Assembly: GCF_018256155.1 (NCBI RefSeq)
Contig: NZ_JAERLY010000003.1
Location: forward strand, 177,560-241,559
From: Gluconobacter sp. Dm-62
Lineage (GTDB): Bacteria > Pseudomonadota > Alphaproteobacteria > Acetobacterales > Acetobacteraceae
DNA: 64,000 nucleotides
Direction of reading: 5' to 3'
Made by a program: the position numbers and the translations under genes. A model generated the notes under the pieces. The model was given only the letters and a program-made list of their open reading frames with translations, did no database searches and was not told where the DNA came from. Below are positions 46,856 through 58,372 of this stretch, in pieces; position 1 is the stretch's first letter; every line of letters begins with the position of its first letter.

Positions 46856-49078
46856 GTGGAGCATACCCAGAGCTTGTCAGGCCCGGACGGAAGAGTCAGT
46901 CCGACTGTCATTCGACTTTATGCTGTCCTGGCCGCAGCCCGCTATCATGGCCTTGAGCTGGATATCCGCGATTTTGCGGCAGAGCCAGGTGAGGATTCGC
47001 CGTCTCCCGCAACCCTCGCAAGATGGCTGAACGAGCAGGGGGGGGTGGCCAAGGGCATGCGCCTTCGGTGGCGTTACCTCGTCAAGATCCGCAATGCGCC
47101 GCCTGTTGTCCTGATGTTCAAGGACGGGTCGGCCGGTCTGATGGTGCGTGCCGATGCCGAAAAAGGCGTGGTATGGCTTCGTGATCCCATGGGCGGCGAA
47201 GGGGACGCTCCCGTTCCGGTGGACGAGCTGCGCCTCATGCAGGTCTGGACCGGAGATGTTCTGCTGGTCAAACGTCGTCGCGACGAATCCGAGGCAGACG
47301 CGAAGTTCGATCTGCTCTGGTTCGCGAAAATGGTGCTTCGCGAAAAAAAGGTGCTGCGGGATATCGCCTTTGCGTCGCTGATCCTGAGTGTATTGCAGAT
47401 TTTCCCTGCGCTGATCGTCATGCAGGTCATCGACCGGGTGGTGAACTACCATTCAATGGCAACGCTGATCTCATTGAGTGGCTTTGTCGTCATTCTCTCT
47501 TTTTACGAGATCCTGCTGACCTATGCCCGTCGTGAGCTTTCACTGATCCTGTCCACCCGTCTGGATGCCCGGATTTCGCTCCACGCCTTCAATAGGCTTC
47601 TCGCTCTGCCGCTGGAATTCTATGAGCGTGAACAGACAGGCGAAGTCCTGGGGCGTTTCATGGCCGTCTTCAAGGTCCGGGACTTTCTGACCGGCCAGCT
47701 GATGAGCACCATGCTGGATCTCTTCACGCTCGTTGTGGTGCTCCCGGTACTGTTCATACTGAGCTCAACCCTTGCATGGATGACGCTGGCCGGAGCGGGT
47801 TGCATCGGTCTTATCGTGGTACTCTTTCTGCCCCCGGTCACCCGTGTCATCGGCCAGCAGGTTGTTGCGGAGATGAAGCGTGGCTCCGTTCTTTATGAAA
47901 CGGTTGCCGGGATCAGAACGGTCAAGACGCTTGCTCTGGAAGCGACGCGCCGGGAGATCTGGGACGAGCGGACGGCAGAAGTGGTGCGGTGGAAGCTCGC
48001 GGCCGGACGGATGGTCAACTGGCCCCAGACGCTGGTCATGCCGTTTGAAATCTTCATCAATCGCGGCATTATCCTGGTAGGTGCTTACCTGATCCTGACG
48101 AACAGCAGTTCCATGCAGCCGGGTGCTCTTATGGGTTTCATGATGCTCGGTGGACGTGTCGCCGGTCCGCTTGTCAACCTTGCCAAGCTGATGGAAGCCT
48201 TCAACGAAGTCAGTGTCTCTCTGAGTGAAGCGGGCAGGGTTCTGAACCAGCCCACGGAAACCAAGGCTCTGACCACTGGAATGCGTCCTGTGGTCAAGGG
48301 TGCGCTGTCTTTCGTCAATGTCGATTTCTGTTATCCCGGCTCGACGACCAAGGCTCTGAATGACGTTACGTTTGAGATTCCGGCGGGAACAATGCTGGGT
48401 CTTGTCGGCCGGTCCGGGTCGGGTAAATCGACAGTAACGCGTCTTCTTCAGGGTGTGAGCCGTAATTATACGGGCTATCTGCGTCTGGACGGTGTGGATC
48501 TGCGTGAAATCAATCTTACCCATCTGCGCCGTTCTTTCGGTGTGGTGCTTCAGGACAACTTCCTGTTTCGTGGGACTATTCGCGACAACATTACAGCTGG
48601 CCGTCCTGGCCTGACGATTGACGATGCAATCCGGGCTGCGCGCCTGGCCGGTGCAGAAGAATTCATCGAGCGTATGCCAGCAGGTTACGATACCTGGATT
48701 GAAGAGGGCTCAACCAACATCTCGGGTGGGCAGCGTCAGCGCCTCGCGATCGCGCGTGCGGTTATCAGTGATCCAAAGCTGATGATTCTGGATGAGGCGA
48801 CATCGGCTCTCGATCCGGAGTCCGAAGCTCTGGTGAACGCCAATCTGCAGCGTATTGGCAAGGGCCGGACGATGGTGATTGTTTCCCATCGTCTGTCGTC
48901 TCTGGTAAACTGTCACCAGATCGCGGTCATGGACCAGGGCAAGCTGATCGATATTGCGCCCCACAGAGTTCTGCTGGAACGGTGTGAGATCTACCGTATG
49001 CTGTGGTTGCAGCAGAACCGGCACATGACAGATAAAGATGTTCCCCGCGACGCCGGGCAACTGACGGAAGGAGAGTAA
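46856..49078 (+). CDS. Type I secretion ABC transporter with C39-like domain
   Basis: This inner-membrane exporter ATPase has 740 residues. Residues 1-150 form a C39-like domain (STPTVIRLYAVLAAARYHGLELD-type start), without the catalytic Cys expected in true C39 peptidases. It therefore docks rather than cleaves a substrate, as in HlyB. Membrane helices occupy about 165-440. The ATPase has GRSGSGKST near 519, NISGGQRQRLAIARA near 620 and LMILDEATSALD near 641. GTG 46856 follows GAGGA six bases upstream. It is the first gene of a cluster with a HlyD adaptor, a Sel1 protein and glycosyltransferases; no substrate gene and no TolC are adjacent. Confidence 0.94.
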   Translation: MEHTQSLSGPDGRVSPTVIRLYAVLAAARYHGLELDIRDFAAEPGEDSPSPATLARWLNEQGGVAKGMRLRWRYLVKIRNAPPVVLMFKDGSAGLMVRADAEKGVVWLRDPMGGEGDAPVPVDELRLMQVWTGDVLLVKRRRDESEADAKFDLLWFAKMVLREKKVLRDIAFASLILSVLQIFPALIVMQVIDRVVNYHSMATLISLSGFVVILSFYEILLTYARRELSLILSTRLDARISLHAFNRLLALPLEFYEREQTGEVLGRFMAVFKVRDFLTGQLMSTMLDLFTLVVVLPVLFILSSTLAWMTLAGAGCIGLIVVLFLPPVTRVIGQQVVAEMKRGSVLYETVAGIRTVKTLALEATRREIWDERTAEVVRWKLAAGRMVNWPQTLVMPFEIFINRGIILVGAYLILTNSSSMQPGALMGFMMLGGRVAGPLVNLAKLMEAFNEVSVSLSEAGRVLNQPTETKALTTGMRPVVKGALSFVNVDFCYPGSTTKALNDVTFEIPAGTMLGLVGRSGSGKSTVTRLLQGVSRNYTGYLRLDGVDLREINLTHLRRSFGVVLQDNFLFRGTIRDNITAGRPGLTIDDAIRAARLAGAEEFIERMPAGYDTWIEEGSTNISGGQRQRLAIARAVISDPKLMILDEATSALDPESEALVNANLQRIGKGRTMVIVSHRLSSLVNCHQIAVMDQGKLIDIAPHRVLLERCEIYRMLWLQQNRHMTDKDVPRDAGQLTEGE

Positions 49079-49080
49079 TC

Positions 49081-50547
49081 ATGAGCTCTTCCGACATGAT
49101 TCCTCAGGACGACAATTCGCCACCTCAGTCCGATGAAGATTTCACCCAGCATGTTCCGCGGACTGCTACGGATCCTTTCGCACCCAATGACATGCCATTG
49201 GCCCTGCTTGAGTTCCACTCGCCCACGGCGGGGCTTGTCAATCTTCCGGCAACTCCATCTGCCCGGTACATCACCTGGCTGATCGGTGGCCTGTTTCTGG
49301 CCTGCGTGGCTGCAATGGCGCTTTTCCCGATCAATCGCGTTGTTTCGACGCCGGGCCGGCTGATTTCCACGCAGCCAACCATCGTCGTGCAGCCGCTTGA
49401 GACAGCCATCATCCGCTCAATTGACGTCCGGGTTGGCGACTTCGTGAAAAAGGGTGATGTCCTCGCGCATCTCGACCCGACAATCACGGAAGCTGACATC
49501 ACGAATATGCGTGTGCAGCGGGATGCCTACCAGGCGGAATATGATCGTCTGAAAGCCGAGGCCGCGGGGCAGGATTATCATGTCAATCTGAATGATCCGG
49601 CATCAGTGGAACAGGGAGCGGCTTTCCTGCGCCGCAAGACTGAATATCAGGCTCATGTCGAGAATTACGCCCAGCAGATCGCTGGTCTTGAAAGCGACAT
49701 CCAGGGCTACCGGGCAAACGCAGCCATGTATGGCAGCAAGATGCGTGTTGCTTCCGAAGTCCTGCAGATGCGGCAGCGTGAGCAGGCCGATCAGGTTGGT
49801 TCGCGTCTTTCGACCCTTGGTGCCCAGACCGAACTGATGGAAGCCGAGCGGGCAGAAATCTCTTCTCAGCAGAGTGCAAACTCTGCCGAGAAGAAGCTGG
49901 CTGCCATGAAGGCCGAGCGTGATGGGTATGTTGGGAACTGGCAAGCCAAGATCTATTCGGAACTGACCGAAGCCGGGCATCATGTCGCGGAATATCGCAG
50001 TTCTTTTGAAAAGGCGCAGCTTCGTCAGGACCTTGTTCTGCTGCGGGCGCCTGAAGACGGTGTCGTCCTGACCATTGCACAAGGATCTGTCGGATCTGTT
50101 CTTCAGTCTGCCGGGCAGTTCATCACGCTTGTTCCTACGGGTTTTGGACTTGAAATGGAGGCCGTCATGCGTTCGCAGGACGTTGGCTTCGTTCAGGTGG
50201 GAGACCATGCGCTCCTGAAATTCGCTACCTTCCCTTACGATCAGTATGGGGGTGCTGAAGCGACAGTTCGCGTCATCAGTGCGGACGCCTTCACGCCTTC
50301 TTCGCAGGGTGGGGGCGCAAATGGAGGAGGAAGCGGCGGTGCGACTTCTGAGGACACGGCTTCAACTGGCATCTATCGTGTCCGTCTGCGGATCGATCGT
50401 TACACGCTCCACGGTCAGCCCTCTTTCTTCCATCCAATGCCGGGTATGTCTGTGACTGCCGATGTTGATGTCGGAAAACGGACTGTCCTGCAGTACCTGT
50501 TTAACAAGCTGACCCCTGCGCTCACCGATGGCATGAGGGAGCCATAA
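49081..50547 (+). CDS. HlyD-family type I secretion adaptor
   Basis: This periplasmic adaptor of 488 residues is anchored by one helix (about 63-83, YITWLIGGLFLACVAAMALF). The short lipoyl start VVQPLETAIIRSIDVRVGDFVKKGDVLAHLDPT is followed by a long coiled-coil hairpin (about 130-310) for an outer-membrane channel and then APEDGVVLTIAQGSVGSVLQSAG. A Gly/Ser-rich insert (GGGANGGGSGGATSED) near 405-420 interrupts the C-terminal beta domain and is unusual for this family. The ATG follows GGAGAGTAATC, three bases after the stop of the ABC gene. Confidence 0.93.
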   Translation: MSSSDMIPQDDNSPPQSDEDFTQHVPRTATDPFAPNDMPLALLEFHSPTAGLVNLPATPSARYITWLIGGLFLACVAAMALFPINRVVSTPGRLISTQPTIVVQPLETAIIRSIDVRVGDFVKKGDVLAHLDPTITEADITNMRVQRDAYQAEYDRLKAEAAGQDYHVNLNDPASVEQGAAFLRRKTEYQAHVENYAQQIAGLESDIQGYRANAAMYGSKMRVASEVLQMRQREQADQVGSRLSTLGAQTELMEAERAEISSQQSANSAEKKLAAMKAERDGYVGNWQAKIYSELTEAGHHVAEYRSSFEKAQLRQDLVLLRAPEDGVVLTIAQGSVGSVLQSAGQFITLVPTGFGLEMEAVMRSQDVGFVQVGDHALLKFATFPYDQYGGAEATVRVISADAFTPSSQGGGANGGGSGGATSEDTASTGIYRVRLRIDRYTLHGQPSFFHPMPGMSVTADVDVGKRTVLQYLFNKLTPALTDGMREP

Positions 50548-50581
50548 CAGAAATACGGAGCGTCCTTGGAACGCTCAAAGG

Positions 50582-50608
50582 AACGCCCGGCAAAGTCCGG
50601 GCGTTTTC
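50582..50608 (+). terminator. Rho-independent terminator
   Basis: AACGCCCGG and CCGGGCGTT form a 9-bp stem with a 6-base loop, followed by TT. It lies 35 bp after the HlyD stop and may set a lower level for downstream genes. Confidence 0.9.
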
Positions 50609-50639
50609 ATGTGACAGTCATTGAGGACCCAACCTGCTC

Positions 50640-52412
50640 ATGTCGGTTAAACATCGTCTTGCCGCTCTTTTTTCTTCGCGTGGAAAGCTGGAATATGCGA
50701 TCCAGCTTACGGAAACAGGCAAGGCTGTTCAGGGGTTTGCGCTTCTCAGCCGCCTTGCAGCAGCAGGGGATACAGAGGCGGCTTTTCGGGTTGGCCGGGC
50801 CTATCTGGACGGACTTGGCGTTCCGCCCAGTCTGGAAGATGGCGCCAGATGGATTTTTCTTGCCGCCGAAGCAGGGCATATCGAAGCGGCCTTTGTCCTG
50901 GCGACACTTTATACGATAGGTCTGCCAGAAGGCTTCGAGATAAGGGCTTCCGGCAAAGCACTGGATCTTTCACATACTCCCGCAGCAGGCCCAAGACATC
51001 CGGATTTCCATCTGGGAATTCATTGGGCGAGGATTGCGGCCGAAGGTGGATCTCCGGATGGGCAGGCCCTTCTGGGATATATCCTGACGAGCGGCCCCGA
51101 AGACCTGCGTGATCCGCTACAGGCCCGGTCCTGGTATGACCGGTCTGCCGCAGCAGGGTGTTCACAGGGTCATCTCGGGGTGGCGCTCTCTATCCTTCAG
51201 AATGCTAACACAGGCGAAGAACTCGCGTCTGCGGCCAGACATCTGACGGAAGCGACGAAAGGTGGTCTGGGTACTGCGTTCGACATTCTGGGGCGTATGT
51301 ATGAATCCGGGTCGGGTGTTCCTCGAGATCTTGGAAAAGCGGCTGGTTATTTCCGTGAAGCTGCAGAGCGGAATGTTGTAACGGCACAGGCCCGGTATGG
51401 CGTGATGCTGCTGGAAGGAATCGGCACGCCCCGCCATTATGGGCGTGCGGAAACCTGGCTGAAGCGGGCTGCGACGAATGGCGATACCCAATCGGCGGCA
51501 CTGATCGGGGATCTGTGTGCCAATGGTGGAGATCTGCCGCCAAATCTTATGGAGGCGGCCAAATGGTACCGGCTTGCGGCAGAGCAGAAACATGCCGGGG
51601 CGGCCCGTGCTCTGGGTCTGCTTTATCTGACCGGGAACGGTGTCCATCAGGATCCGGATGTCGCAGCACACTGGTTCAAGGTAGCATCGGAAGCGGGCGA
51701 TGCTCATGCAGACGCCGATTTTGGCAACCTGATTCTTGCGGGTGCCTCGGCTACTCCAGATGAAAAGCAGGCTCTGCACGCGCGTTTTGAAAAAGCGGCG
51801 GAAAAGGGTGATCTGGTTGGAGCCTATAATCTTGGCGTATGTTTTGCCGAAGGCGTGACGGGCGCGCAGAACGGGCGTGAAGCGGCCCGCTGGATGCAAA
51901 AGGCCGCTGATGGCGTCGTCAACGCCCAGTATCACTATGGCAAAATGCTGCTTGAGGGACGGGGTGTGCAGCCTGACCCCACTCAGGCCCTGTACTGGAT
52001 GGAAAAGGCGGCAGACGCAGGCATGGCCGATGCTCAGGTGGCTGTGGCTGGTCTGCTTGTTGATGGACGAATCAATGGTCGCCGGGATCATGAAAAAGCC
52101 CTGACGTTCTATCGGAACGCTGCCGAGAGTGGAAATGTCGATGCCATGTTCTCGCTGGCTGCGATGTATGGCGGGGGACATGACGTGCCTGAAAACCGTC
52201 CGCAGGCACAGTTGTGGTTCCGCAAGGCTGCCCAACGCGGAAACGGCCTCGCCCAGATGATGCTGGGGCGCTACCTCATTCGTGGACTGGGAGGTGTCAC
52301 GGATCCGGTAGAGGGACGTATCTGGCTGGAACGGGCGAAAGCACAGAATATCAAGGATGCTGACGCGGAACTGTCTCTTCTGAATGAAGCACAGCCGGAT
52401 GACGATGATTGA
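50640..52412 (+). CDS. Sel1-repeat protein
   Basis: The product has 590 residues made almost entirely of Sel1-like (TPR-type) alpha/alpha repeats. About a dozen are visible, for example AAFRVGRAYLDGLGVPPSLEDGA, ILGRMYESGSGVPRDLGKAAG, ALGLLYLTGNGVHQDPDVAAH and MLGRYLIRGLGGVTDPVEGR, with 'A..G...A...LG..Y..G.GV' spacing. No signal peptide is seen. Sel1 proteins are scaffolds that assemble membrane or cell-envelope complexes. Its stop overlaps the TTG start of the glycosyltransferase, so the two are probably translated together. Its link to secretion is by context only. Confidence 0.92.
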   Translation: MSVKHRLAALFSSRGKLEYAIQLTETGKAVQGFALLSRLAAAGDTEAAFRVGRAYLDGLGVPPSLEDGARWIFLAAEAGHIEAAFVLATLYTIGLPEGFEIRASGKALDLSHTPAAGPRHPDFHLGIHWARIAAEGGSPDGQALLGYILTSGPEDLRDPLQARSWYDRSAAAGCSQGHLGVALSILQNANTGEELASAARHLTEATKGGLGTAFDILGRMYESGSGVPRDLGKAAGYFREAAERNVVTAQARYGVMLLEGIGTPRHYGRAETWLKRAATNGDTQSAALIGDLCANGGDLPPNLMEAAKWYRLAAEQKHAGAARALGLLYLTGNGVHQDPDVAAHWFKVASEAGDAHADADFGNLILAGASATPDEKQALHARFEKAAEKGDLVGAYNLGVCFAEGVTGAQNGREAARWMQKAADGVVNAQYHYGKMLLEGRGVQPDPTQALYWMEKAADAGMADAQVAVAGLLVDGRINGRRDHEKALTFYRNAAESGNVDAMFSLAAMYGGGHDVPENRPQAQLWFRKAAQRGNGLAQMMLGRYLIRGLGGVTDPVEGRIWLERAKAQNIKDADAELSLLNEAQPDDDD

Positions 52413-55375
52413 CCTCTGTGTCCTCTGACCGTTCTTCCAGGCCCGTAAAATCCAGCGCGGCGTTTGCGGGCTTTGGCCGGGCTGTGAGCGATGAAGACCG
52501 CGCCCGCTGGCGAGATGCCATGAGCCGCAGGGCCCAGGAAGCGTTTTCCAGAGGGCAGGCTGCTCTTCAAAACGGCAACGCCAGTTTGGGCCTCTTCTGG
52601 CTTGAGCGCGCGGAACGGATGTCCCGGCATAATCCCAACCTGAAATGGTCAGTCGGATTGGCCTGTCTTTCTGTCGGACGGATTACGGACTGTCTGCTCC
52701 GTATGGAAACCCTGCGGCGGGATTTCGGCCTCCGGGAAGCCGCATTTCTTGAAGTGATCTGCCTGGTGCGGCTCCAGCGCATGGAAGAGGCTACAAGCCG
52801 GATGCAGGCTGCCCTTGCGCGCTTTCACGCAACACCGGAAACATATCGTCTGGCTGAGCAGATTGCAGCCGCTGCCGGGCTGCCCGGGTGGATGACCGCG
52901 TCCAATGCAGGCACTGTTTTTGTCGGGGCATCCTCCGGTCTGCCCCGGCTGTTTCTGGACGGGCAGGAAATCGCGCGCAGCACGACGCATGACGGTGTCT
53001 ATGGGCTTCCGAAAGGCTGGCGCGCGGCTCGCAAGCTGGAGGTCCGTGTTGGGAGACGGCATGTTCTGGGCAGTCCAATGGATCTTGCCGCTCTCACCCG
53101 ATGTGAATCCTTTGTTGAAGCAACCACCGATGGGTTGAAAGGCTGGATCTGGACCCCGGCCGAACCAGAACACACACCTCTGCTCACCCTGTGGGACGGC
53201 TCCTCTTTTCGCGTTGAGGCCTTTGCCGAGGACGTGGATAGTGACGTGCCGCTGGCGCGAAACCGGACATTTCACGTGCCTGCCACGCGCTGTCCGGAAG
53301 GCGACACAGGCCCTGTTGCTCTGTGGGACGAAAACGGGCGTCTTCTGACCGGAGCTCCGGTCGATCCCATGGTTGGAAGGCTGTTTTCAGGACGCGTTCG
53401 GGCGCTACCGGCACGATTGCGTCCCGTGAGGGTCAAAGCCGGAGACAGACGTCCGCATCATTCACGCATAAGCCCCGGCTGCGCGGTTGTTATCCCGGTC
53501 TATGCCGACCGCATCCGGACAATGGCCTGCCTCAGGACGGTACTGGCGACATGTCCGACGGATATTCCGGTAATTGTCGTGGATGATGCGACCCCTGAAC
53601 CGCTTCTGGCTCAGGCGCTCGATCAACTGGTGGAAGCGGGTCGTATTACCCTGATCCGCCATGAGCAGAACCGGGGTTTTCCGGTTTCCGCCAATGCCGG
53701 CATGCGCGCGGCAGAAGGCTTGGATATCCTGCTGCTCAACAGTGACACGCTTGTCCCTGCGGGGTGGGTTGAACGGTTGCGGGCCAGACTCGCTTTTTCG
53801 GATGTCGGCACGGTAACGCCGCTTTCAAATGACGCGACCATCCTGTCCTATCCGTCTACGCAAACGCCCAATCCGGTTCCGTCACTCGCAGAAATGCGGG
53901 CACTGGACCGTCTGTGCCGGGAGACTGCGGAGACGGGTATTCGTGACGAGATCGATCTGCCAACTGCCCATGGCTTCTGCATGGCGATCTCCGCAGATTG
54001 CCTGACAGAGATCGGCCTGTTCCGGGAAGACCTGTTTGCACAGGGCTATGGAGAGGAAAACGATTTCTGTCTCAGGGCTTCGGCAAGAGGCTTCCGGCAT
54101 CTGGCAGCATCGGAGCTTTTTGTGGCCCATGTGGGATCTGCGTCTTTCGGAACAGCGCGGAAGTCCCTTGGTGTGCGGAATCTGGAAATTCTCAATGCCA
54201 TGCATCCGGGTTACGATCTGCTTGTAAGGCGCTTCATTGATGCTGATCCGTTGCATGCGACCCGGCGCAGGCTGGATGCCGCAGCCCTGACCCGGCTGGC
54301 TGCAGGCAGGCCGGCCATTCTGATGGTCCAGCATGATGCTGGCGGCGGCGTCGGGCGTGTGGTGCGCGAACGCTCGGAGGCGCTCGAAGCTGACGGGGTT
54401 TTTGCACTTGCACTTCGTCCGCATGAGCGTGGATGCCAGCTAGAATACGCCCTGAACAGCAAGCGTTTTCCCAATCTCACATTCCGCCTTCCTGACGAGC
54501 TGCCCTTTCTGCTCGATCTGCTCAAAGGTCTTCGGGTGGATGCGGTGGAATGGCATCATCTGATCGGTCATGCGCCCTGCATCCGGACGCTACATGAGGC
54601 ACTTGGTGTTCCGTATGACGTCTTTATTCATGACCATGTCTGGTTCTGCCCGCGAATCTCGCTCTGTGACGGGGAGGGGCGTTACTGCGGCGAACCTGAC
54701 CCGGCGGGGTGTGAACTTTGTATTACACGCTGGGGAAGTTATCTTGGTGAAGACCTTTCGGTCTCCGAACTTCTGGTGCGCTCTGATCGGGAGCTGTCAG
54801 GTGCACGCCGCCTCATGGCGCCTTCGGACGACACGGTACGGCGGATCCGGAGGCATTTTCCTGGCCTGACAATCGATGCGGTCGCCCTAGAGAACGATGC
54901 TGCGCTTTGCGAAGCCATTCGCCCCGGCCGGCATGCAGCATATGGGCAGCCATTGCGGGTCTGCGTTGTGGGAGGGATCAGCCAGTGGAAGGGCTATGAT
55001 GTCCTGCTGGCTCTGGCGGCTGAAATCCAGACCCATCGCCTTCCGATCGAACTGTCACTGGTGGGGCACACACATGACGATGACGCCCTGATCTCACTGG
55101 GAGTCCGGGTCACGGGAGAATACCGGGAAGAAGAAGTTCTGACCCTGATCCGGCAGCAGCAGCCGGATGTCGGGCTGATTCCGTCCATTGCGCCTGAAAC
55201 ATGGTGTTATGCCCTGGGGCAGATCTGGCGCAGCGGTCTGGAGGCTGTCTGTTTTGATCTGGGCGCGCAGGGAGAGCGGGTGAGAAGAAGCATGACAGGG
55301 CTGGCAGTGCCCCTTGGGGCCCCGCCTTATCAGCTTGCGACGCTTCTGCTGCGGCGATGGGGTGCACCCGGGTGA
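52409..55375 (+). CDS. Large multidomain glycosyltransferase (TPR + GT2 + GT4-like)
   Basis: The product has 988 residues, with no membrane helix or signal. Residues 30-170 are helical TPR-like repeats. About 175-335 look like a beta-domain (LFLDGQEIARSTTHDGVYGLPKGWRA). About 355-600 form a GT2 domain: AVVIPVYADRIRTMACLRTVL, VVDDATPEP, LLLNSDTLVPAGWVERLRARL and GEENDFCLRASARGF. About 635-988 form a GT4-like domain: VQHDAGGGVGRVVRERSEAL, a Cys cluster HDHVWFCPRISLC...CGEPDPAGCELC, and CVVGGISQWKGYDVLLALAAE. Such enzymes glycosylate proteins or build glycans from nucleotide sugars. The start is uncertain. TTG 52409 overlaps the Sel1 stop; GTG 52418 is an alternative. Confidence 0.88.
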   Translation: MTSVSSDRSSRPVKSSAAFAGFGRAVSDEDRARWRDAMSRRAQEAFSRGQAALQNGNASLGLFWLERAERMSRHNPNLKWSVGLACLSVGRITDCLLRMETLRRDFGLREAAFLEVICLVRLQRMEEATSRMQAALARFHATPETYRLAEQIAAAAGLPGWMTASNAGTVFVGASSGLPRLFLDGQEIARSTTHDGVYGLPKGWRAARKLEVRVGRRHVLGSPMDLAALTRCESFVEATTDGLKGWIWTPAEPEHTPLLTLWDGSSFRVEAFAEDVDSDVPLARNRTFHVPATRCPEGDTGPVALWDENGRLLTGAPVDPMVGRLFSGRVRALPARLRPVRVKAGDRRPHHSRISPGCAVVIPVYADRIRTMACLRTVLATCPTDIPVIVVDDATPEPLLAQALDQLVEAGRITLIRHEQNRGFPVSANAGMRAAEGLDILLLNSDTLVPAGWVERLRARLAFSDVGTVTPLSNDATILSYPSTQTPNPVPSLAEMRALDRLCRETAETGIRDEIDLPTAHGFCMAISADCLTEIGLFREDLFAQGYGEENDFCLRASARGFRHLAASELFVAHVGSASFGTARKSLGVRNLEILNAMHPGYDLLVRRFIDADPLHATRRRLDAAALTRLAAGRPAILMVQHDAGGGVGRVVRERSEALEADGVFALALRPHERGCQLEYALNSKRFPNLTFRLPDELPFLLDLLKGLRVDAVEWHHLIGHAPCIRTLHEALGVPYDVFIHDHVWFCPRISLCDGEGRYCGEPDPAGCELCITRWGSYLGEDLSVSELLVRSDRELSGARRLMAPSDDTVRRIRRHFPGLTIDAVALENDAALCEAIRPGRHAAYGQPLRVCVVGGISQWKGYDVLLALAAEIQTHRLPIELSLVGHTHDDDALISLGVRVTGEYREEEVLTLIRQQQPDVGLIPSIAPETWCYALGQIWRSGLEAVCFDLGAQGERVRRSMTGLAVPLGAPPYQLATLLLRRWGAPG

Positions 55376-55542
55376 ATAGCGGTTTACCTTTTCCATTGAA
55401 AGAGGCCACTATTATGCGAAAACAGAAGCCTGTTTTAACACATCGTCGGGATGCCGCTCATAACTGTGATGACCACTCGTGACAGTTCATGAAACATGCC
55501 AGTATTATTGCCAGCAAGAACAGACGCAATTGGGAGTAGGGA

Positions 55543-56532
55543 ATGTCTAACGCCGCCGAAGCACCGCGACAGAACCGGGTCATCGACCTCAAGGCTGGTG
55601 CACATATGATGGTGCTGGATGCAGGGATTTTCTGTATTTTCCATGCTGCTGGTCAGGCTCCCGCTGGCCCGACCGGACTGCCGGGCGTCAGGATTTCCTG
55701 TGCGCCTGGGACGCCGCCGGGGATCGTGACGGTCAGCACGTTCGAGGAAGATGGCTGGATTGGCGGCTCCAACGGAGCTGCGCTGGTTCGGATCATGCGG
55801 GGACCAGCCGCTGTTCTGGTGACGACGTATCAGGAACCTGACAGCCCCCACGCCGCGCCGCGTCTTCAGGTTGCCCAGCTTGCAGGCCCTGTGACCACAG
55901 CGCCCGCCCAGTCCCCCGTTCCAGCGGCCGCGCCGGCACCTGCTCCGGCTTCAGCCGCAGCGGTCGAGGCGGCTGAAGCTGCAGTGGAGACTGCTGCAGA
56001 AAAGATTTCGAAAGATATCTCTGCTCATATCCAGCGTCGTGGCGACGTCACCACAGGGGTCGGACACTGGATGGGCGTTCCGGGAAGCCAGAGCTGGATT
56101 GAAGGCTTCAGCATCGCCCCCCAAACGGGCGTTCCTGCTTCGGACATCGAGTATCAGGCTGTTCTCGGCAAGGGCTGGCTCTCTCCCTGGGCTGAAGGCG
56201 GGCAGTATTGCGGCTCCCGTGGCATGGCACTCCCTATCCTGGGACTTCGCGTCCGGCTGAAAGGCGAGTCTGCGAAGACACACAAGGTGCGGCTGACGGC
56301 AACATTCACGGATGGGACGCGCCTTGGCCCTGTGGACGGCTCCGAGGCCCTTGAAGCAGAAAGCCTGGCTCCGCTGGAAGCTTTCCTGCTGGAAGTTGTC
56401 CCCGAGGGAGAGGAAACCCCGGTTTCCAAGCCTGCGTCGAAGCCCGCGGCAAAGCCCCGTGCGGCAAAGTCGTCTGAAACGCCTGCCAAGCCGCTTTCTC
56501 CCAGAAAGCGCAAATCCACCCCAGCCTCCTGA
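55543..56532 (+). CDS. Protein with hydrophobic-W-like domain and Ala/Pro/Lys-rich tail, function unknown
   Basis: The product has 329 residues, with no signal peptide. Residues 1-110 form a small domain (NRVIDLKAGAHMMVLDAGI), followed by an Ala/Pro-rich linker (about 115-160). The central domain contains WIEGFSIAPQTGVPASDIEY, GKGWLSPWAEGGQYCGSRGMA and LPILGLRVRL. This fits the 'GW..W...G...G..G....l..i.i.L' pattern of clostridial hydrophobic-W (ChW) repeats. The tail (about 285-329) repeats KPASKPAAKPRAAK and is strongly basic. A type I signal would sit at the C-terminus, and the unusual tail may serve that purpose (inference only). ATG 55543 lies after GGGAGTAGGGA. It follows the glycosyltransferase by 167 bp. 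Confidence 0.72.
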   Translation: MSNAAEAPRQNRVIDLKAGAHMMVLDAGIFCIFHAAGQAPAGPTGLPGVRISCAPGTPPGIVTVSTFEEDGWIGGSNGAALVRIMRGPAAVLVTTYQEPDSPHAAPRLQVAQLAGPVTTAPAQSPVPAAAPAPAPASAAAVEAAEAAVETAAEKISKDISAHIQRRGDVTTGVGHWMGVPGSQSWIEGFSIAPQTGVPASDIEYQAVLGKGWLSPWAEGGQYCGSRGMALPILGLRVRLKGESAKTHKVRLTATFTDGTRLGPVDGSEALEAESLAPLEAFLLEVVPEGEETPVSKPASKPAAKPRAAKSSETPAKPLSPRKRKSTPAS

Positions 56533-56540
56533 ATAAGTAA

Positions 56541-56573
56541 CTGGAGAAGGAGTTTTCCTTCTCCAGACTTTTT
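56541..56573 (+). terminator. Rho-independent terminator
   Basis: An 11-bp perfect stem (56541-56551 with 56556-56566), loop GTTT, is followed by ACTTTTTC. It lies eight bases after the stop at 56532. Confidence 0.95.
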
Positions 56574-56647
56574 CTGATTTTACCTGCCGTCCGCTGTCCT
56601 CTCCGTGCGCGAACAGGAAACCGCGGAGGCTTCCAGCCGCTCCGGAG

Positions 56648-57886
56648 ATGATGTTGCGCTACCTATTCGTTCACCAGAATTTTCCAGGACAGTTTCTGCA
56701 TTTTGTTCGCCATCTTCAGGAGCAGGGTCATGAAATTGTCTTCATCTCCGAAGCGAACAACAATCATATTCCCGGTGTCCGGCGTGCCATCTATCGCGTA
56801 CCGCGTCTGCCTTCGATGGACACCCACCGTAATCTGAGAGAATTCGAATACGGCCTTCTCCGCGCTGAAGCAGTCGCAACAGCGGCTCGGACGCTCAAGG
56901 GCCTTGGGTATGAGCCTGACATCATTGTCGGTCATCACGGATGGGGCGAACTGCTTAATCTGGGCGATGTGTTTCCGGAGTGCCCGATCCTCGGATATTT
57001 CGAGTTCTTTTATCATGCCGAACAGAATGACGTTGGTTTCGACCCTGAATTCCCGCCATCTCCGGAACTTGCCGCTGCCGTCAGGGTCAAGAACGCGATC
57101 AATCTGCAGGCGCTCTGCCTGACAAATGGATATGGCCAGAGCCCTACGCAATTCCAGCTCGGAACATATCCGGTCTGGGCGCAGGAGAAAATTTCCCTGC
57201 TGAGGGAAGGTGTCAATCTTGAGTTCTGCTGTCCGGAGCCGCAGGCCCGGCGGCGTAATCTCGTCATCAAGGACGTCAGGATTACACCCAAGCAGCCGCT
57301 CATTACCTATGTTGCCCGCGATCTCGAGCCATATCGCGGATTTCACGTCCTCATGCGGGCGCTTCCCCGCATCCTTTCCAAACGCAAGGATGCGCATGTC
57401 ATTATTGTTGGCGGAGACAAGGTCAGCTACGGAACACTGCCTCCAGACGGAGGGAGCTGGCGAGAGGTTATGCTGCGCGAAGTCGGGGACAGGCTCGATC
57501 TCGATCGGGTGCATTTCGTTGGCAAGATCGAATACGATGATTTTCGGGCTCTTCTGCGCCGGTCAGATGCCCATCTGTACCTGACCTACCCCTTCGTGGC
57601 GTCCTGGTCCCTGCGCGAAGCGATGGCAACGGGATGTCCGATTGTCGGAAGCGATACGGCCCCGGTCAGGGAATTCATTACGCATGATGTGACCGGTCTG
57701 CTGGTGCCGTTTCTGGACCCTGAAAAAATTGCCGAAACCACCCTGACGCTTCTGGGGGATCGTAAAATGGCGCGCCGTCTGGGGCAGGATGCCAGACGTT
57801 ACGCTGAGGCCGAGCTCTGTCTGAACGATTATCTGGAGCGCTATGACAATCTGGTCAGCCGGATTATCGAAACGTATCGCTCCTGA
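56648..57886 (+). CDS. GT4-family glycosyltransferase
   Basis: The product has 412 residues. The N-terminus YLFVHQNFPGQFLHFVRHLQEQGHEIVF is typical of the GT4 subgroup that begins 'FPGQF', and HHGWGELLNLGDVFPECPILGYFEFFYH follows. The C-terminal GT-B half holds PLITYVARDLEPYRGFHVLMRALP, IIVGGDKVSYG and the E-x7-E donor site region WSLREAMATGCPIVGSDTAPVREFI. It would use a nucleotide sugar and act on a lipid-linked glycan or protein. GGAG lies just ahead of the ATG pair at 56648/56651, so the second ATG may be used. It probably works with the larger transferase upstream. Confidence 0.92.
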   Translation: MMLRYLFVHQNFPGQFLHFVRHLQEQGHEIVFISEANNNHIPGVRRAIYRVPRLPSMDTHRNLREFEYGLLRAEAVATAARTLKGLGYEPDIIVGHHGWGELLNLGDVFPECPILGYFEFFYHAEQNDVGFDPEFPPSPELAAAVRVKNAINLQALCLTNGYGQSPTQFQLGTYPVWAQEKISLLREGVNLEFCCPEPQARRRNLVIKDVRITPKQPLITYVARDLEPYRGFHVLMRALPRILSKRKDAHVIIVGGDKVSYGTLPPDGGSWREVMLREVGDRLDLDRVHFVGKIEYDDFRALLRRSDAHLYLTYPFVASWSLREAMATGCPIVGSDTAPVREFITHDVTGLLVPFLDPEKIAETTLTLLGDRKMARRLGQDARRYAEAELCLNDYLERYDNLVSRIIETYRS

Positions 57887-57943
57887 AACGGGTTGGCCCT
57901 CACTTGAATGGGACTTTCCACAAGACCAGCAAGGAACACAGGG

Positions 57944-58372
57944 ATGGGTAGTGAAATAATGTCAGAACTTAAAACACTGCTGGGGCAGTGGATCTGCAAG
58001 AAGGATGCCTCTACCCATCCAGGCCTCCTCACAGACTCTGATATCCACAATATTGCTGTGGCCATACAGGAAGGGATTTCCGAGACGGTTTCTGCCGACG
58101 GGCATAGGGAATGGGGAAAGCTGAGAGATCTGACCAGAGGCTGGCTGGTCCAGCAGAAGCCTGGTACGGAGCCTGGGCCATTACAGACGCATGACTTCGA
58201 ACGGCTGGGATCGCTCGTTGTAACGGAGACTCCCGAGCCAACGCCGTCTCATGATGTTTCCGAAGCTCCTGCTACGGTGCCTGACACGGAAAATGTTCCT
58301 CCACTCCAGGTAGATGCCAAAAATGATGCGGCACTCTTCTTTGCCCGGGAACACCTGGAACGCTGCCTCTGA
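57944..58372 (+). CDS. Small acidic protein, function unknown
   Basis: The product has about 142 residues, with no signal or membrane helix. The N-terminal half is predicted helical (MSELKTLLGQWICKKDASTH, HNIAVAIQEGISETV). The C-terminal half has a Pro/Glu/Thr-rich stretch (VVTETPEPTPSHDVSEAP), and the end is LFFAREHLERCL. ATG 57944 is placed about nine bases after AAGGA; ATG 57908 and 57959 are alternatives. I do not recognise it. It is the last gene of the same-strand run that starts with the secretion transporter, and it ends at a hairpin. Confidence 0.62.
   Translation: MGSEIMSELKTLLGQWICKKDASTHPGLLTDSDIHNIAVAIQEGISETVSADGHREWGKLRDLTRGWLVQQKPGTEPGPLQTHDFERLGSLVVTETPEPTPSHDVSEAPATVPDTENVPPLQVDAKNDAALFFAREHLERCL

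Follow-up and report, generated by a model that had tools for sequence, protein, structure and literature searches.

What does a type I exporter carry when its genes are joined to those of glycosyltransferases and no substrate gene lies beside them? This question is raised by seven genes in a 64,000-nucleotide stretch (hereafter, the window) of Gluconobacter sp. Dm-62 contig NZ_JAERLY010000003.1 (positions 177,560 to 241,559), which is part of a 3.46-Mb draft genome. The genes encode an HlyB-type ABC exporter, an HlyD-family adaptor, a Sel1-repeat protein, a 988-amino-acid (aa) enzyme with glycosyltransferase domains, a ChW-domain protein, a glycosyltransferase family 4 (GT4) enzyme and a 154-aa protein. 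An initial annotation of the window had proposed glycosylation of a protein followed by its type I export, and the evidence presented below favors this proposal. We consider it probable that the locus encodes a glycosylate-then-export pathway, in which an RTX-like protein would be glycosylated in the cytoplasm and then exported by type I secretion.

Conservation of the gene order

Among 150 Acetobacteraceae genomes, 117 contained an ABC match at E 1e-100, and from this pool we fetched 40 stretches of 39 genomes, picked mainly for long contigs. The order ABC, HlyD, Sel1, 988-aa enzyme, ChW, GT4 was found in 33 out of the 40 stretches (including L081, in which the ABC gene is split and the order is otherwise the same); the remaining stretches comprised three with ABC/HlyD alone, three of a 39–40% ABC clade and one decayed copy (L080). 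In a separate set of named loci, the best 80 of 300 relatives, the full order was present in 74, and the other six were cut by contig ends. The genera represented include Gluconobacter, Neokomagataea, Acetobacter, Asaia, Bombella, Saccharibacter, Swaminathania and Commensalibacter. The comparison across Acetobacteraceae that the initial annotation had called for accordingly found that the genes travel together in most loci, and because their order is kept across the family, the arrangement is not due to chance.

The window-type ABC clade occurred in 109 out of the 150 genomes (hereafter, exporter-positive genomes). From the co-occurrence set we omitted G003, G095 and G133, whose matches were judged to belong to a shorter paralogue group, together with the lower rows of that group, and from the positives also eight genomes with only a 38–42% ABC clade. 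The listed 988-aa enzyme was likewise found in 99 of the 109, and 73 of these 99 showed both genes side by side.

A candidate cargo encoded outside the cluster

When the source genome was searched with the RTX model PF00353, matches were obtained in one open frame only, that of a 461-aa protein on another contig (G000:C4:24621-26003), which is most likely the cargo in this genome. The protein has RTX repeats and no Cys, and S, T, G and N make up 53% of it; its PF00353 score was 37.3 bits (cut-off 23), compared with 111.2 bits for a 399-aa Gly/Ser/Thr-rich RTX protein of another genome, G423, discussed below. Immediately downstream of its gene, on the same strand, lies a gene for an 888-aa protein with GT4-type domains, and beyond this an RgpF-like gene on the opposite strand; on the other flank, a divergent gene encodes a 957-aa protein with GT4-type and GT2 domains.

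Relatives of the 461-aa protein were sought in 43 genomes, and 36 gave a match at E 0.01. Matches in exporter-negative genomes were partial and weak (best 1.6e-9, G011), and the query found no match in the exporter-negative G066, G045 and G044 or in the exporter-positive G029, G116, G070 and G140; a plasmid search with the same protein also gave none. All 30 cargo-type proteins that we extracted, of which two came from exporter-negative genomes (L135, L136) and one from a broken gene (L125), lack Cys, contain more acidic than basic residues and have 36–56% S+T+G+N. Both termini are conserved in the aligned sets, no signal peptide was visible by reading, and a PDB search with a profile of the C-terminus gave nothing convincing. 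The conserved C-terminus may carry an export signal.

A large adhesin encoded elsewhere had been one of two products suggested in the initial annotation. The cargo does appear to be encoded elsewhere, and the candidate is of medium rather than mainly large size, as 23 out of 27 unbroken relatives from exporter-positive genomes have 416–514 aa. Some very long open frames likewise contain matches to the C-terminal domain of the cargo candidate: one match lies in a frame of 8358 aa (G086:C22:213092-213295), and G100 (G100:C1) has 17 matches, with open frames of up to 3512 aa.

A plain PF00353 search was also tried as the definition of the cargo and was dropped. Of 30 genomes searched, nine small exporter-positive ones had no match at E 1e-3, and six of these nine have relatives of the 461-aa protein; RTX repeats alone therefore do not define the cargo.

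Association of cargo-type genes with the exporter and the enzymes

We built a profile (A2) of the cargo-type C-terminus from 25 of the 30 extracted proteins. At E 1e-10, A2 matched 77 out of 109 exporter-positive genomes and 3 out of 41 exporter-negative genomes; with one genome per genus, these values were 54/73 and 2/28, and at E 1e-3 they were 94/109 and 14/41. Two of the three exporter-negative exceptions were G082, which is 73% complete and has the 988-aa enzyme, and G004, which consists of 480 contigs.

At seven loci outside the cluster, the gene immediately preceding that of a 988-aa-type enzyme is of the cargo type; these loci are in G086, G018 (where a ChW gene comes after the enzyme gene), G010, G006 and G423 and on plasmids of Azospirillum brasilense and A. 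thermophilum. In G423 and the two Azospirillum species, the upstream gene encodes an RTX-like protein of 339–399 aa (in G423, the RTX protein scored above), and the C-termini of these three proteins matched A2 at E 2e-23 to 3e-17, even though A2 had been built without them. Among eight loci with extra copies of the 988-aa-type enzyme, four (L230, L250, L251 and L252) have the enzyme gene immediately preceded by one of the cargo type. From this adjacency, the acceptor of the glycosyltransferases may be the cargo itself.

A similar association was observed for the 888-aa-type glycosyltransferase. It was found at E 1e-120 in 30 genomes, all of them exporter-positive (G126 as a decayed copy), after the weaker matches of G001, G002, G023 and G053 had been excluded from the 34 genomes matched, and in 24 of the 30 its gene lies 67–746 bases downstream of a cargo match. 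In G046 (L227:11633-13024), a gene for a DUF2142 membrane protein overlaps the end of the 888-aa-type gene beside the cargo gene.

In G126, which belongs to the same genus as G046, all 10 pathway genes (ABC, HlyD, Sel1, 988-aa enzyme, ChW, GT4, three cargo genes and the 888-aa-type enzyme) are broken or missing, at four places, compared with 6 out of 26 neighbors. The neighbors counted were genes of at least 100 aa with at least 95% of their DNA present; the DUF2142 gene, also broken, was counted as a neighbor, and metH, which is broken too (0.35, DNA 0.70), was left out of the count. Given the decay of neighbors and possible sequencing error, this joint decay is support for a common pathway and not proof of it.

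The ChW-domain protein as a probable enzyme subunit

A profile (A1) built from the ChW-domain protein was run against 385 genomes spanning the class and matched six, of which four belong to Acetobacteraceae and two (G423 and G393) to other families. In both of the latter, a single polypeptide comprises the 988-aa-type enzyme and, at its C-terminal end, the ChW region, and the same fusion is encoded on plasmids of A. brasilense Sp7 and A. thermophilum, where A1 matched the ends of enzymes of 1396 and 1383 aa at 2e-60 and 3e-63. The fused enzymes of the four genomes have 1197–1396 aa. In Azospirillum and G423, the fusion gene is followed by a methyltransferase gene and then by a homologue of the GT4 enzyme (43–48% identity). 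Because it is fused to the 988-aa-type enzyme in these four genomes outside Acetobacteraceae, we read the ChW protein as part of the enzyme, and it is probably an accessory subunit.

The ChW protein was matched in all 33 full-order stretches, and 43 out of 45 relatives matched PF07538. It has two invariant Cys, the window copy has a Lys/Ala/Pro-rich tail, and no signal peptide was visible by reading; its nearest named relatives are from Gluconobacter species (69–88% identity). A PDB search with the ChW profile gave nothing convincing. On a plasmid of Komagataeibacter saccharivorans (L262), a 34%-identical enzyme of the 988-aa type lies beside a second glycosyltransferase and a GT61 gene, and neither of the two larger enzymes there matched the ChW profile.

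Exporter class and related ABC/HlyD copies

The best NCBIfam model of the ABC protein was the HlyB model TIGR01846 (518.8 bits, below the model cut-off of 725.55), and the HlyD protein exceeded the cut-off of TIGR01843 (317.1 versus 208.65 bits). Of the other full-length exporters in the same genome, the three scanned (a comparison that excludes L005 and L007) were all best classified as MsbA-type. The ABC protein aligned nearly end to end, its N-terminal domain included, with HlyB (7sgr and 8dck, E ~1e-108), and also nearly end to end with bacteriocin-transporter chains such as 4ry2. The initial annotation had described a Cys-less, C39-like N-terminal domain. The first 150 aa indeed contain no Cys, as in 21 out of 25 sequences including the window copy; the label 'C39-like' rests on collinearity, because the N-terminal domain found no PDB chain as a lone query.

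It had also remarked that neither an RTX or adhesin gene nor TolC is in the window. This is borne out: all PF00353 matches of the genome fall on contig C4, and each of the 12 matches to the TolC-type model TIGR01844 is either on another contig or on a part of contig C33 that the window does not cover. One of the latter 12 passes the type I cut-off of 225.15 bits (G000:C22:255237-256469, 261.8 bits).

Five ABC/HlyD copies with usable flanking sequence (L072, L073, L082, L101 and L102) occur without the other four genes. In two of them, a gene for a Cys-free HAF-repeat protein of 261 aa (cut by a contig end) or 303 aa is divergent from and adjoins the lone ABC gene (L101:6249-7031 and L102:13041-13952), and 37 other loci scanned in the same way contained no open reading frame (ORF) of this kind; this protein is likely to be the cargo of that branch. 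As guides to the cargo of the window cluster, the lone copies were set aside; the HAF-repeat protein is found beside two of the five, and no neighbor common to the other three was noticed. The 38–42% ABC clade has other neighbors; for instance, a 40%-identical ABC/HlyD pair is immediately preceded by a gene for a 1484-aa protein with 51 ALTTAQ-repeat stretches (L077:311-4765).

Composition of the cluster

The seven same-strand ORFs and their families were confirmed as first annotated (Table 1), with one partial exception. The 988-aa protein had been called a TPR/GT2/GT4 enzyme; a GT2 domain (50.9 bits) and, marginally, a GT4-type domain (PF13692, 27.6 bits versus a cut-off of 27) were found, and no TPR match was present in the Pfam listing of the window protein, whereas a fused homologue in L099 does have TPR matches. 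The hairpin, which is a consensus match only, suggests more than one transcript across the cluster. The Sel1 protein, judged by reading to be cytoplasmic, is possibly a chaperone or scaffold and could hold the cargo. The 154-aa protein gave no Pfam or NCBIfam match at E 0.01 and had a match, at any position, in 33 out of 80 named loci. In L049, the cluster is flanked by MetH on one side and an inorganic pyrophosphatase on the other, and relatives of each were found in 14 fetched loci.

Table 1. Features of the exporter and glycosyltransferase cluster (positions in the window)
Feature	Position	Strand	Description
HlyB-type ABC exporter	46856-49078	+	740 aa; Cys-less N-terminal domain
HlyD-family type I periplasmic adaptor	49081-50547	+	488 aa; TIGR01843
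Sel1-repeat protein	50640-52412	+	590 aa; PF08238, 8 repeat stretches, 245.5 bits
988-aa enzyme, GT2 and GT4-type domains	52409-55375	+	
ChW-domain protein	55543-56532	+	329 aa; PF07538, 25 bits (cut-off 22)
Terminator-like hairpin	56541-56566	+	11 pairs and T-rich tail; between ChW and GT4 genes; consensus match only
GT4 enzyme	56648-57886	+	412 aa; PF12000, 182.4 bits
154-aa protein	57908-58372	+	lineage-specific

Proposed pathway and alternative explanations

In the pathway that we consider probable, the cargo would be made without a signal peptide, and the 988-aa enzyme with its ChW subunit, the 412-aa GT4 enzyme and the cargo-linked glycosyltransferases would add sugars in the cytoplasm to an RTX-like, Cys-free acceptor rich in Ser, Thr, Gly and Asn. 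The Sel1 protein might hold or guide this product, whose C-terminus would be recognized by ABC/HlyD for export with a TolC encoded elsewhere, presumably to the cell surface. Catalysis, the sites and sugars and the order of these steps are predicted from sequence and gene context. Going further, and tentatively, since we judge it slightly less than evenly balanced, this may be a dedicated pathway that spans much of Acetobacteraceae and has a sister form in Azospirillum; its enzymes would form a multi-enzyme complex, the glycoprotein would be threaded through the exporter and Sel1 would keep it export-ready.

Several observations weigh against the pathway. The argument for both glycosylation and export is built on sequence and gene context. 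A2 was drawn solely from exporter-positive genomes, which favors the co-occurrence test, and the counts were made without a tree. Even at E 1e-3, 15 of the 109 exporter-positive genomes, including G029, G116 and G140, had no A2 match (in at least one of the 15, G018, A2 missed a cargo-type gene that is present). Half of the eight extra enzyme copies (L249, L253, L254 and L255) have no adjoining cargo gene, and in 6 of 30 genomes (G078, G049, G043, G080, G014 and G009) the 888-aa-type enzyme is encoded without an adjacent cargo gene. ABC and the 988-aa enzyme lie on different contigs in 26 of 99 genomes, all of which are drafts of at least 50 contigs; G058, the one of these that we inspected, appears to be truly split, with enzyme, ChW and GT4 genes lacking an exporter (L256, a split main block that was not counted among the extra copies). 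A 790-aa cargo-type paralogue in G046 has no Pfam match at E 0.001, so that RTX repeats are not general. G126 shows background decay, and the HAF-repeat protein beside two lone ABC/HlyD pairs indicates a transporter family that is not tied to one cargo. Finally, the annotation of the Azospirillum stretches includes ABC genes and lists no HlyD-type adaptor.

The alternative that survives best, unlikely as we judge it, is that ABC/HlyD exports the RTX-like protein unglycosylated, and that the glycosyltransferases make a surface polysaccharide or part of a lipopolysaccharide to which this protein binds. The GT2 and GT4 domains are of the same kind as in exopolysaccharide synthesis (Eps and Hps models were listed, with scores far under their cut-offs), genes of sugar-nucleotide and polysaccharide type surround the Azospirillum loci, an RgpF-type protein neighbors the cargo gene, and clostridial ChW domains are thought to bind sugars. 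However, the families listed for the seven genes include no flippase, polymerase or polysaccharide exporter (the parts of the window on either side of these genes were not scanned), and the seven loci outside the cluster in which the enzyme gene comes right after a cargo-type gene are what is expected if the enzyme acts on the protein. The initial annotation had taken a substrate gene elsewhere, together with glycosyltransferases belonging to a separate polysaccharide locus, as evidence against its own proposal; a candidate substrate gene does lie elsewhere, and assignment of the glycosyltransferases to such a locus was not borne out.

It is very improbable that the genes are neighbors by old history only, serving separate pathways, with another, unseen cargo for the exporter: the lone ABC/HlyD copies and the exporter-positive genomes without the listed 988-aa enzyme (10/109) or an A2 match (15/109) would fit this view, but the order kept in all named loci except those cut by contig ends, and the joint decay at four places in G126, do not. 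Least probable of all is export of the ChW protein, the other product suggested in the initial annotation and here rejected as cargo: it has a ChW domain, no signal peptide by reading and a place in every full-order stretch, but in four genomes its counterpart forms the C-terminal end of the enzyme itself, and its invariant Cys and the Lys-rich tail of the window copy are unlike the cargo family.

Comparison with known systems

The proposed pathway resembles HlyB/HlyD/TolC type I systems with RTX cargo in its Cys-less ABC N-terminal domain, its HlyD adaptor, a TolC encoded elsewhere and an acidic, Cys-free, RTX-like cargo with a conserved C-terminus. It differs in that the cargo gene is unlinked, the exporter is locked to glycosyltransferases and to Sel1 and ChW proteins, and the window ABC scores below the HlyB model cut-off. 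A close arrangement is that of A. brasilense Sp7 plasmid ABSP7_p5, where genes for a calcium-binding protein, a glycosyltransferase, a methyltransferase and a glycosyltransferase family 4 protein provide counterparts of the cargo candidate, of the enzyme with its ChW part and of the GT4 enzyme; there, enzyme and ChW are fused, a methyltransferase is added, and no HlyD or Sel1 is annotated in the stretch. Three cargo-type proteins partially matched the SMc04171 family of calcium-binding repeat proteins (NF046115), at 25.9, 75.5 and 33.7 bits versus a cut-off of 625, and are therefore not members.

Oscillin (646 residues) and SwmA are cyanobacterial RTX repeat proteins at the cell surface that have been reported to be glycosylated, and the available part of the source names no dedicated glycosyltransferase set for them (PMC3034196); the likeness drawn here is at the level of description. 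An Asaia genome paper describes type II secretion and a large adhesin, and the word 'glycosyltransferase' does not occur in its available part (PMC4596401). A full-text literature search, in which coverage of subscription journals was poor, found no paper on this locus.

Significance

These results make it probable that the cluster is a variant of type I secretion that is coupled to glycosyltransferases, and they provide a strong cargo candidate as well as a suggested role for the conserved ChW protein. Acetic acid bacteria live on flowers, fruit and insects, and they can be grown and modified. The enzymes that add sugars to cyanobacterial RTX surface proteins are not named in the available part of the source (PMC3034196), and the locus offers a testable set of cargo, enzymes and exporter. 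Study of this set would tell whether glycosylated chains can pass through a type I exporter, and, if the proposal is true, it would yield a surface glycoprotein for work on acetic acid bacteria that are associated with insects.

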